Below, one piece after another: positions 10,687 to 13,350 of a DNA stretch of 15,336 nucleotides. The stretch lies in contig NZ_JAGGQW010000098.1 in assembly GCF_018613065.1 (NCBI RefSeq), forward strand, positions 1-15,336. The letters run 5' to 3'. Each line of letters opens with the position of its first letter. Within the stretch, counting starts at the first letter, position 1. Origin of the DNA: Bacillus sp. ISL-7 (GTDB lineage: Bacteria > Bacillota > Bacilli > Bacillales_B > DSM-18226). The notes under the pieces were generated by a model. It did no database searches. It saw only the letters and a list, made by a program, of their open reading frames with translations, and was not told the origin of the DNA. Position numbers and translations under genes: made by a program.

Positions 10687-10741
10687 GTTAAACTATCGCA
10701 TCCGTTAGTCCAATAAGAAAAAGCCGCCCATAAAAGCAGCT
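10687..10741 (-). terminator. Terminator module with CCGTTAG motif (repeat E)
   Basis: On the minus strand AGCTGC/GCGGCT (one G-T pair) is followed by TTTTTCTT at 10721-10714. Next to it ACTATC and GTTAGT (10692-10709) form a small imperfect hairpin around the CCGTTAG motif. It could end transcripts reading through from the ger operon, although it lies about 400 bases beyond the gerC stop. Confidence 0.5.
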
Positions 10742-10895: not shown

Positions 10896-10920
10896 GCATT
10901 TCTCCATCTTGAAGAAATGC
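10896..10920. repeat. Perfect 8-bp hairpin beside the second leader copy
   Basis: GCATTTCT and AGAAATGC pair across a nine-base loop and end one base before the leader similarity starts at 10922. It has no equivalent perfect stem at the first copy, so it is probably flanking DNA or a separate repeat. Confidence 0.45.
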
Positions 10921-10921
10921 A

Positions 10922-10999
10922 CCCGTTAGCCATCTCTGCAGCACAAAATCAGTGCTACACCACAGAGAATGAAAATGGTTAGGAAGTGTCAATACTGAT
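10922..10999 (+). ncRNA. Second IS110-type leader copy without transposase
   Basis: This segment aligns to 176-254 with about 66 of 79 columns identical by eye, including CCCGTTAGCCATC, CACCACAGAGAATGAAAAT and GTCAATACTGAT. The central hairpin is kept as AGCAC/GTGCT (10940-10944 and 10952-10956) with one compensatory pair change. No transposase-like sequence follows, and similarity ends at 10999. It is most likely a truncated or solo left end of a related IS110-type element, or a dispersed structured RNA repeat. Confidence 0.5.
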
Positions 11000-11149
11000 A
11001 CTGTCCTTAATCTAGTCAACCCTACTCCATAGACTTATTTACTACCGCTCTCCTCTTTTTTTTAACGATTGAGCAGGGTCCTTTTAAGTTTTGTTATTTT
11101 TCTTATCTTGAATAAACTTATTTTCATTGTAGAACATCATTGGCCCGTG

Positions 11150-12253
11150 TTACTTAATCGTTCCCATCCCACTAATGGTTACACTTACCTTCACGTTTAT
11201 ATCAGCCTTCGAAAAGGCTTTTCCCCATTGATTTTGGACTTTTTTCCACTCTGGATATGTATAGGCTCTTGCATATATCCCAAATCCAAAAGGGTCAATG
11301 TTCGCGGTTTGCGTTTTCTTTATTAAGCGCTCAAAATCTGCTTGCAGTTTCGTTTCAATACTCTTTTGCAGTTTCGCTGCGTCTTTCCTTACATTGAATG
11401 GAAAAAGCCGTTCTGTAATAACAATTCTCAATTTTACGTCTGTGTCAAAAATAAAATGATTGTCATACTTTACCTTTGTTTTTACCTTGATGCTTGGGGT
11501 ACCAAAGCTTAACCAATGTTTATCGCGTCCATTCGATTTCAATGGGACTGAAATGGTAAATGGGAAATCACCTTTTGTTTTATGCTGCAGGATGCGTAAT
11601 AATTTGTTTTCATGCGGTGTTATGCTTAACTTATATCTGCTTTGATCATCCAGAAGCGCCGTGCCTGTCAACATAATTTTGTCCGTTTTTTTCATCTCGG
11701 TAATACTTGCTGTCATCCCTTTTTCCGTCGTTTCCTCATGTAATTCCTGAAGTGACGTTTTTACCGTGACATTTCTTCTGGAGGCTGTATCCACTAAATT
11801 TGCCAAATACAAAGGAAGACGCGGCTTATCTTTTGGTCTAAAAAAAATGAAGTCCGAAACAGGCCCATCTACTGCGACAACTCTTGTGGTTACCGTATTT
11901 TTGGGGTCCCGGTAGTAAGTATCGATATAATCAATCCAATTTTTTCGTTTTAGCAGTTTTTTCCCGATTAGGATTAATTGCGTTTTGCTTCCCGATGTCA
12001 AAGCCATTACCGTCGTATCAAACAGTTCCCTGGAATCTCGAACCGTAACAGCTTTCACCTCGACCTTCTCCTCTTTAACCTTTGCTTCTTTATTAAACAC
12101 CGGACTGGACATGTACACCAATAAATGATCATCCTCATCCAGGTCTAAACCTAGTATAAGTGACATAGTGACATCTTCAACATTCATTTGGTCCACGCAC
12201 CCAGTCATCATCATAGCCAAGAGCGATAGGCAAAGTAGTATCTTCCTTTTCAA
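11150..12253 (-). CDS. Spore germinant receptor subunit C, Ger(x)C lipoprotein
   Basis: Lipoprotein subunit of a GerA-type germinant receptor, anchored on the outer face of the spore inner membrane. The start is TTG at 12253, behind GGAGGG, and overlaps the gerB stop by four bases (TTGA). The N-terminus MKRKILLCLSLLAMMMTGC is a type II signal peptide with lipobox MTGC; C19 would be lipidated. The three-domain Ger(x)C pattern follows: MNVEDVTMSLILGLDLDED near the start, the middle KTSLQELHEETTEKG region, and a helical C-terminal part with IETKLQADFERLIKKTQ. The length of 367 residues is normal. It is last in the operon, and no close terminator is evident downstream. Confidence 0.92.
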   Translation of the reverse strand: MKRKILLCLSLLAMMMTGCVDQMNVEDVTMSLILGLDLDEDDHLLVYMSSPVFNKEAKVKEEKVEVKAVTVRDSRELFDTTVMALTSGSKTQLILIGKKLLKRKNWIDYIDTYYRDPKNTVTTRVVAVDGPVSDFIFFRPKDKPRLPLYLANLVDTASRRNVTVKTSLQELHEETTEKGMTASITEMKKTDKIMLTGTALLDDQSRYKLSITPHENKLLRILQHKTKGDFPFTISVPLKSNGRDKHWLSFGTPSIKVKTKVKYDNHFIFDTDVKLRIVITERLFPFNVRKDAAKLQKSIETKLQADFERLIKKTQTANIDPFGFGIYARAYTYPEWKKVQNQWGKAFSKADINVKVSVTISGMGTIK

Positions 12254-13350
12254 CGGCTTACCCTCCGACGAAACTTTTCATATATCCAGCTATAGACCCA
12301 TAAAAAGGGAGGAGCTACGAATGCCAATTGCAGCCCTCCTTTGGCAACCATTTGCTGCCACTTTTCCGATTCCATCCAAGTAGGATCTCTCCAAAAGACC
12401 AATCCAATAATGATTAATAATAAAATAATGACGTGCTGGCTGTGATCCTGTTTTCCAAGCAATTGACTAGAACAAAAGACAGCAAAGAATACGCAAGACA
12501 TCCATGACGTGGAAACAACAATCAGATATACAGCCAATAAAACCATGTCAAAACGCTCCAAAAAACGAAACTCAATTAGTTTAAGTAAATTCAGTACGGG
12601 CTGATTAAATTCGATAATCCCATCGGGGCTAAAATAGGCAAAGCAGACAATCGTTACAAATACATAAAACATCATCGTTAAGGTGTTCGCAATCGTGATT
12701 CCGAGAACCGCATGCTGCTTTTTTTGTAAAAAGGGGTACAAGAAGAACGCGACTTCAAATCCCAAAAAGGAAAAAACAGTGGTCGGCACAGCGGATAATA
12801 CTGGTCCCCACCCTTCTTTAAGCACCGGAAGAAGGTGCAGCCAATTTCCATCCCTTAGCGGTACCAAGAAAAACAGAGGAATCCACATCACCATGTAAAA
12901 AGACAGCTCGCAGTATCTGGCTAAAACGCGAACCCCGTTACGGACTACCAAAAAGGTGGGAATCGAAAATAACAGTAAAATGATGTAATTTGAGGTTTTA
13001 GGCAGAAACCATGCTTTGATATATAGACTGCCATTCACAAGAACGGCCCAAGCGTAAAAAGCAAAGTACATCATGTAAACGATGACGACGGCTTTTCCCA
13101 CTATTTTTCCGAATAGTCGTATAAGAATTTCGAAAAGCGTATCATCAGGGTATCTTTCGGCCGTTTTAACTATAAAAATGCTGGCAGCCACGGAGAAGAC
13201 CCAGCCAATTAGGATAGCGACCCAACCGTCGGTACCTGCTTTTTCCGCTAGTATACGTGGGAGGGATAGGACCCCAGTTCCCACCTGTGTTCCACTAATC
13301 AAAAAAATATATTGCATGAGAGTGATTTCATTATAGGCATATTTTTTCAT
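12250..13350 (-). CDS. Spore germinant receptor subunit B, GerB-type permease
   Basis: Integral membrane subunit of the APC (amino acid/polyamine) permease superfamily that, by family knowledge, forms the germinant-binding part of the receptor. The 366 residues carry about ten membrane helices. The first includes FLISGTQVGTGVLSLPRILA, the unwound Gly-rich segment where ligands bind in GerB proteins. The ATG at 13350 lies four bases after the gerA stop, and its ribosome binding site AAAGGTGA overlaps the gerA end, so the two are translationally coupled. The C-terminus YEKFRRRVSR is basic and cytoplasmic. The germinant cannot be predicted from sequence alone. Confidence 0.93.
   Translation of the reverse strand: MKKYAYNEITLMQYIFLISGTQVGTGVLSLPRILAEKAGTDGWVAILIGWVFSVAASIFIVKTAERYPDDTLFEILIRLFGKIVGKAVVIVYMMYFAFYAWAVLVNGSLYIKAWFLPKTSNYIILLLFSIPTFLVVRNGVRVLARYCELSFYMVMWIPLFFLVPLRDGNWLHLLPVLKEGWGPVLSAVPTTVFSFLGFEVAFFLYPFLQKKQHAVLGITIANTLTMMFYVFVTIVCFAYFSPDGIIEFNQPVLNLLKLIEFRFLERFDMVLLAVYLIVVSTSWMSCVFFAVFCSSQLLGKQDHSQHVIILLLIIIGLVFWRDPTWMESEKWQQMVAKGGLQLAFVAPPFLWVYSWIYEKFRRRVSR

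Follow-up and report, generated by a model that had tools for sequence, protein, structure and literature searches.

IS110-related segments in the window

The window, a stretch of 15,336 bp from Bacillus sp. ISL-7, contains two related segments at positions 176-257 and 10922-11002 that are 84-85% identical (families D2 and D3), in agreement with the value of about 84% given in a sequence-only reading of this DNA. The first belongs to the remnant of a full-type IS110 element on the plus strand (184-590), for which homology and alignment identified a left end, a bridge-RNA gene and the truncated start of a recombinase gene. It is preceded by a left target half-site (177-183, core AG at 182-183) that was placed by alignment and by the guide table described below. 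The left end includes a hairpin of 8 pairs (191-214; predicted fold and hairpin set) and is followed by a predicted bridge RNA (256-410), in which the consensus fold and the covariance model place an outer stem and two internal-loop domains. According to the guide table, this RNA carries a 5' target guide (TGAACT, 279-284) pairing with the right target AGTTCA, a 3' target guide (CCGTTAG, 304-310) that is the same as the left target, and a 3' donor guide (CATGGTAG, 367-374) that is the same as the usual right terminus. The transposase adjoining copy one is itself a 5' remnant of the recombinase gene (442-590; ORF list and homology), as homology stops near 590 and the ORF list holds no intact frame. 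Phage records searched with copy one gave no match. The idea that 176-254 represents a target repeat hit by an IS insertion was rejected, since the target consists of CCGTTAG only and the remainder travels with the element.

The second segment falls in the left part of an element of about 205 bp (10928-11132, plus strand), designated type A here, in which a left end is joined to a right end with an AG core at both ends. Its continuation past 11002 was found by blastn against plasmids, and the copy was resolved by alignment to full-length IS110 elements on Peribacillus, Radiobacillus and Paenibacillus plasmids. In this alignment the left end extends up to about 11002, and the right end starts at what is left of the recombinase stop codon (11008-11010) and runs to 11132. 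The junction between them (11000-11006) lacks the bridge-RNA gene and almost the whole recombinase gene. The sequence-only reading had rightly reported that no transposase ORF adjoins 10922-10999. Its description of the segment as a solo second copy of the leader was mistaken, as copy two runs on to 11132, the second half being a right end from the same IS110 family.

The type A element of the window follows a left target half (CCGTTAG, 10923-10929, core AG at 10928-10929), recognised by the heptamer common among other copies and by its identity to the guides of the full-length relatives. Within the element lie a covarying left-end hairpin with one broken pair (10937-10959; sequence and covariation tests), a ATGAAAAT box (10969-10976) that is an inverted copy of ATTTTCAT at 11120-11127, and a right terminus (11125-11132) that reads CATTGTAG, with one mismatch to CATGGTAG. 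Both boxes are present as 7-mers in 70 of the 82 distinct type A copies described below, and the ATGAAAAT box is likewise found near the left end of copy one (224-231). The ORF list contains no ORF of 60 aa inside the window copy, and neither a recombinase nor a bridge RNA of its own is encoded. The element sits between gerAC (stop at 11150) and a terminator-like pattern match on the minus strand (10896-10920) that lies downstream of gerAC beside the target half-site. With a mismatched terminus and a right flank that is not a half-site, the window copy is therefore probably immobile now.

Recombinase, bridge RNA and guides of the full-length relatives

The autonomous relatives L001 and L002 encode proteins with both Pfam domains of IS110 recombinases (DEDD_Tnp_IS110 and Transposase_20), and the enzyme of L001 scored 271.9 bits against the IS110 recombinase model NF033542 (cut-off 140). 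Upstream of the recombinase gene, the consensus fold of 21 aligned RNA regions predicts a structured RNA with target and donor loops, composed of an outer stem plus two domains that contain internal loops, which is the bridge-RNA layout of IS110 elements. A covariance model located 73 such bridge RNAs in 18 of 23 genomes. By manual count the pair table of the RNA core contained 17 G-U versus 4 A-C cells (one-sided changes and mismatches), which favours the plus strand and indicates that the mismatch test is able to detect a plus-strand RNA.

The guide table comprised 78 RNAs (69 of the 73 covariance-model places and 9 others), with guides read by alignment. The left flank was placed and the guide free of gaps in 63 rows, and the right end was located in 55; a spurious end (L007) was excluded from the latter, and at several full-type loci the sequence taken was too short to reach the right end. 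The 3' target guide was identical to the left flank heptamer in 59 of the 63 rows, a value reached in 0 of 10000 permutations, which are blind to relatedness. These matches included the rarer targets CCTATAG, CCCGCAG, CAGTTAG, CTGTTAG and TGCGCAG, leaving four misses. Similarly, the 3' donor guide equalled the right terminus in 44 of 55 rows (0 of 10000 permutations, again blind to relatedness), where only the free positions carry weight because the motif by which the right terminus was found already prescribes much of the octamer. Termini reading CATGGTAG, CATGGGAG and CAGGGTAG were each matched by 3' donor guides, and the 11 misses differed at one or two positions. For the 5' target guide, the mean agreement with the right target over 51 rows was 5.32 of 6 compared to 5.16 when permuted (2 of 10000 permutations blind to relatedness), with clear cases of paired guide and target change such as TAAGCT with AGCTTA. 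This test was run without two Radiobacillus elements, whose guide register is shifted by one base and whose match was seen by eye, without L003, for which the right flank is missing, and without one gapped guide. Overall, the guides appear to match the elements' own target and donor ends, clearly for the left target and the right terminus and more weakly for the right target.

A second IS110 lineage with recombinases 43-45% identical was encountered in genome G008 (C107:21829, C98:26129 and C127:11215), for which no bridge-RNA model match was listed just upstream.

Distribution and target sites of type A elements

The pattern of the type A junction matched 49 stretches of Bacillales DNA, all contigs of whole-genome-shotgun assemblies found by that junction, from Peribacillus, Psychrobacillus, Neobacillus, Cytobacillus, Priestia, Viridibacillus, Heyndrickxia, a record titled Paenibacillus and others. 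All 23 genomes of the genome set match type A by construction. In a survey of one family, at least 48 of 151 genomes had a match at E <= 1e-10 and at least 31 a near full-length copy by manual count, both being lower bounds since five candidates were scored per genome. Among the matches listed for the 23 genomes, many of which were partial, 51 near full-length copies from 21 genomes were picked by hand, one of them (G007) ending at query position 201. The type A set contained 82 distinct end-to-end sequences (88 rows minus 6 that were duplicate or short) of 187-214 bp with a mean pairwise identity of 80%. Even though 36 of these 82 did not match the scan pattern exactly, they displayed the same build.

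Several observations give the picture of a moving element, namely near-identical copies at unlike sites and a higher identity within genomes. Two type A copies in G002 are identical, with flanks only 0.17 and 0.23 alike at a distance of 30-90 bases. Pairs that are 99.5% identical occur in G008 and G010, the left flank being 0.63 alike in one of them, and mean identity is 0.92 within genomes compared to 0.82 between genomes. The copies are complete elements and not, as the sequence-only reading had allowed, all truncated ends of one element. An empty site was obtained neither from the nearest relative found, G196 (89% identical over 11133-13350), which shares the right flank with different DNA on the left, nor from the plasmid comparisons.

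At the best offset, at least 6 of the 7 positions of CCGTTAG were present to the left of 74 of the 82 distinct copies, TTNA to the right of 50, and both in 44. The right terminus was CATGGTAG in 55 and CATGGGAG in 9; the latter was found in all eight type A copies from Psychrobacillus and also in 9 of the 10 donor guides of the two Psychrobacillus genomes.

The sequence CCGTTAG followed by TTNA belongs to an inverted-repeat site, with AACTAA and TTAGTT on either side of a spacer, which is clustered on one strand between ORFs. Exact matches to the target-site pattern numbered 60 in G010 and 55 in G018, and in a 20-kb region of G018 a single strand carried all of the 18 sites found with up to one mismatch, against 0.79 expected. 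In five of seven hand-picked regions an Xer-like tyrosine recombinase of about 285 aa was encoded within about 700 bases of a site; two of these proteins were typed. The integron integrase model for IntI (TIGR02249) gave no score above cut-off in 24 genomes, nor in 14 control genomes. The IS110 targets are recombination-site-like repeats in cassette-like arrays. Such arrays, with ORFs separated by same-strand inverted-repeat sites, were seen at L325 (G018:C15:540001-560000), L023 and L045. Within the window, sites or half-sites are located at 177, 10702 and 10923. The one at 10698-10725 is a further copy of the target site that is unoccupied and decayed (CATCCGTTAGTCCAATAAG).

Covariation of the left-end hairpin

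The base pair G197-C208 of copy one is replaced by A10943-T10953 in copy two, as the sequence-only reading had stated, and the stem is present in the predicted fold of both copies. Closer examination revealed that the loop is not unchanged, as had been supposed, since it reads AAAAATCA in copy one and AAAATCA, one A shorter, in copy two. In addition, a broken pair had been overlooked (A193-T212 in copy one, C10939 x A10957 in copy two). A single compensated pair between two copies proves little, and the support for covariation comes from larger sets. Among 23 type A elements, 94.0% of the cells were paired compared to 81.3% after shuffling (0 of 500 shuffles as high, the shuffles being blind to relatedness), while controls in which the pairing was slid reached at most 51.6%. 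The statistical test for which the earlier reading had called yielded 26 two-sided cells versus 9.8 in shuffled data, with a score of 0.349 versus 0.134 (0 of 500 as high). Two measures were weaker, as two-sided change affected 4 pairs versus 3.0 (152 of 500), a count that is not exceptional, and further pair types numbered 8 versus 6.2 (8 of 500). In a set of 65 distinct hairpins from all classes, 87.2% of the inner six pairs were formed versus 71.1% when shuffled (0 of 5000). The anchored pattern used to collect this set requires TG...CA ends, for which reason the two outer pairs were excluded; a loose pattern, in which the register is free to slip, gave 22.1% versus 24.7% and was replaced by the anchored one. 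Stem changes elsewhere were therefore mostly compensated and not the random substitutions that would have spoken against the covariation.

The sequence-only reading had taken the preserved pairing as a sign of an RNA under selection that might have spread independently of its recombinase. Pairing is indeed preserved and the segment does spread without a transposase, but the RNA part of the proposal fares less well, and we consider it highly unlikely that the segment represents or encodes a small structured RNA that is kept by selection and spreads on its own. In its favour are the compensatory changes and the finding that plus-strand segments of 82 and 81 bases fold better than shuffled sequence (z -2.6 and -2.9), an effect that is smaller for the minus strands (-1.18 and -0.60). 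Against it stands the loss of the bridge-RNA gene from type A, the window copy included, together with a remainder of the element that folds no better than shuffled sequence (z -0.11 and 0.28). Nor do hairpin mismatches show the excess of G.T over A.C expected of a plus-strand RNA (5 versus 12 in type A, 5 versus 5 in RNA-bearing elements and 4 versus 4 in the rest), and the segment has no match in Rfam at the gathering score. The suggestion that the hairpin forms the first stem-loop of the bridge RNA, at its 5' end, is unsupported as well, as the conserved RNA core begins about 45 nt further downstream, although promoter scans gave no plus-strand promoter that would fix the transcript start (one minus-strand match each, which is no more than shuffled sequence yields). 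A role at the DNA level, with a hairpin or cruciform used at the element's end, or the upkeep of palindromes by template-switch correction without selection, fits the hairpin at least as well as RNA does. Pairing that is kept amid sequence variation, A.C mismatches that equal or exceed G.T, and a hairpin that persists in elements without a bridge-RNA gene are consistent with this; a transcript across the joined circle could, on the other hand, include the hairpin, and we give the DNA-level account an even chance.

Elements that carry the bridge RNA without the recombinase

A second class of short elements, type B, was first seen among short genome matches, of which 12 loci were aligned, one ending at a contig edge. 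These elements of about 380 bp consist of the left end, the complete bridge RNA and the right end, with the recombinase gene missing (L178, L181, L184, L185, L192, L009 and others; alignment and automatic typing). Automatic typing assigned 36 elements to type B, 35 of them in 11 of the 23 genomes and one on a plasmid; the 31 with both ends placed measured 367-397 bp. G003 has two identical type B elements whose flanks are 0.28 and 0.16 alike. No intact close recombinase was found in eight of the 11 type B genomes. It is this class that fits the earlier idea of an RNA spreading without its recombinase.

Proposed origin and mobilisation of type A

The comparisons establish the ends of type A, its missing parts, its multi-copy spread and choice of target, as well as the matching of guides and ends in its relatives. 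Taken together with published trans action, they make it likely in our judgement that 10922-10999 is the left end of a non-autonomous IS110-group derivative of about 205 bp that was moved in trans by a full-length relative. Because the junction is common to the copies, a single ancestral deletion is suggested, which would have extended from about the start of the bridge RNA to the recombinase stop codon. What remained would be a donor made up of the two ends, each with its AG core. Recombinase and bridge RNA would both come from a full-length relative within the same cell. The joined ends, probably in a circular intermediate, would be recognised by the donor loop, and the target loop would direct type A to CCGTT-AG-TTNA sites. 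In published plasmid assays, the bridge RNA acted in trans on a 22-bp donor (PMC11208160), and a mini-IS with ends of 29 bp and 16 bp was moved by recombinase and RNA expressed outside it on the same plasmid (PMC11187229). Since the ends and targets of type A are those of the full-length relatives and trans action is on record, trans mobilisation by the relatives' recombinase and RNA appears to be the economical reading.

Some findings count against it. In 15 of the 21 genomes with full-length type A no close recombinase was found intact, meaning uninterrupted by a stop, full length and at least 76% identical, and the covariance model found no bridge RNA of this kind in five of the 23 genomes, which are shotgun assemblies. 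In G003 and G020, type A ends in CATGGTAG but the bridge RNAs found there carry CATGGGAG, one base off. Many type A copies may be relics. The lack of a recovered empty site and the window copy, with its right-end mismatch and missing right half-site, weigh on the same side. Type A also keeps end stretches far beyond the 22-bp donor, which the trans account leaves unexplained.

Two other accounts of type A were weighed against trans mobilisation. That it is merely a decayed, truncated IS110 end, immobile by itself, would suit the mutated right terminus and missing right half-site of the window copy as well as the many partial genome matches. This account is contradicted for the family by the identical join of left and right ends in the 49 stretches, albeit found by that junction, by the shared build of the 36 copies off the exact scan pattern and by near-identical copies at different sites; it may hold for the window copy, and as a general explanation we rate it as improbable. 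An alternative mover would be the tyrosine recombinase whose sites type A occupies, which would make the element a passenger of recombining cassettes independent of IS110. The clustered same-strand sites among the targets, and the proximity of the Xer-like recombinase to such a site in five of the seven regions, would agree with this. Most near-identical pairs have unlike DNA on both sides, however, and the element boundaries coincide with IS110 ends and the AG core, leaving this possibility with very little weight.

Extending trans mobilisation to type B, we think it somewhat probable that two tiers of parasites have arisen from Bacillales IS110 elements, a donor-only one of about 205 bp and a guide-only one of about 380 bp, both homing to sites of Xer-like cassette arrays. 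The shorter element would borrow both enzyme and guide RNA. The longer one would carry its own complete bridge RNA and borrow the enzyme, and the RNA would in this way spread, and its targeting evolve, independently of the recombinase.

Relation to known systems and significance

The full-length relatives resemble IS621 and other IS110 elements with bridge RNA (PMC11208160, PMC11208158) in recombinase family, in the two-loop RNA upstream of the gene, in the dinucleotide core, which reads CT on the other strand as in IS621, and in guides matching donor end and target. They differ in the order of the target guides, which appears reversed relative to the IS621 arrangement described in PMC11208158; the 5' target guide does not pair with the flank on the side of the RNA gene but with the distal flank, as matched in L092, L090, L002 and L115. 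Type A is further set apart from IS621 by having neither RNA nor recombinase.

ISPpu9 of Pseudomonas putida (PMC8450116) is likewise an IS110-family element with an AG repeat and small RNAs, and has RNA copies away from the transposase gene. For these orphan ssr9 copies the authors suggest a possible independent mobilisation helped by tnp, which makes them the closest precedent for the class of about 380 bp, a likeness drawn from the description in that paper. As described there, ssr9 differs in its host, Pseudomonas, in being a regulatory RNA and in occurring as three or four orphan copies per strain. In contrast, the RNA of the class of about 380 bp has two loops, and its guides match the ends and target of the element itself. 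Non-autonomous IS derivatives are already known, as are orphan RNA segments from an element of the IS110 family.

The artificial ISEc21 mini-IS (PMC11187229) shares with type A a mobile part limited to IS ends and target flanks, with recombinase and RNA external, while type A is a natural element, present in multiple copies and widespread. Bacterial MITEs (PMC10969869) are similarly short, gene-free and multi-copy at different sites, with ends in common with an autonomous IS. The ends of type A are not inverted repeats of each other, so the element is MITE-like only, and it would depend on an RNA besides the enzyme. IS1111 elements on integron attC sites (PMC11187229) are a parallel case of RNA-guided IS targeting of cassette recombination sites. 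They belong to another IS group, and the sites found here are without a recognised IntI; the subterminal inverted repeats of 11-13 bp and downstream RNA gene of IS1111 have no counterpart here, where only the 8-bp ATGAAAAT/ATTTTCAT pair occurs and the RNA gene is upstream. MiniMdi3 from Methylobacterium, a transposase-less relative of ISMdi3 of about 400 bp (PMC2680597), may be an earlier donor-only IS110 derivative, though the main text does not say to which IS family it belongs. Otherwise, a search of the open-licence PMC literature, as distinct from ISfinder, preprints and subscription papers, found no donor-only IS110 derivative.

In the papers cited here, action of bridge RNA in trans comes from plasmid assays, and type A and type B would be natural cases of it. 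If this is true, donors without RNA and RNAs without recombinase have been multiplied and dispersed by evolution. The two types offer minimal donors and many natural pairs of guide and target, and they make it possible to ask what, besides base pairing, matters in the ends, the covarying hairpin included.
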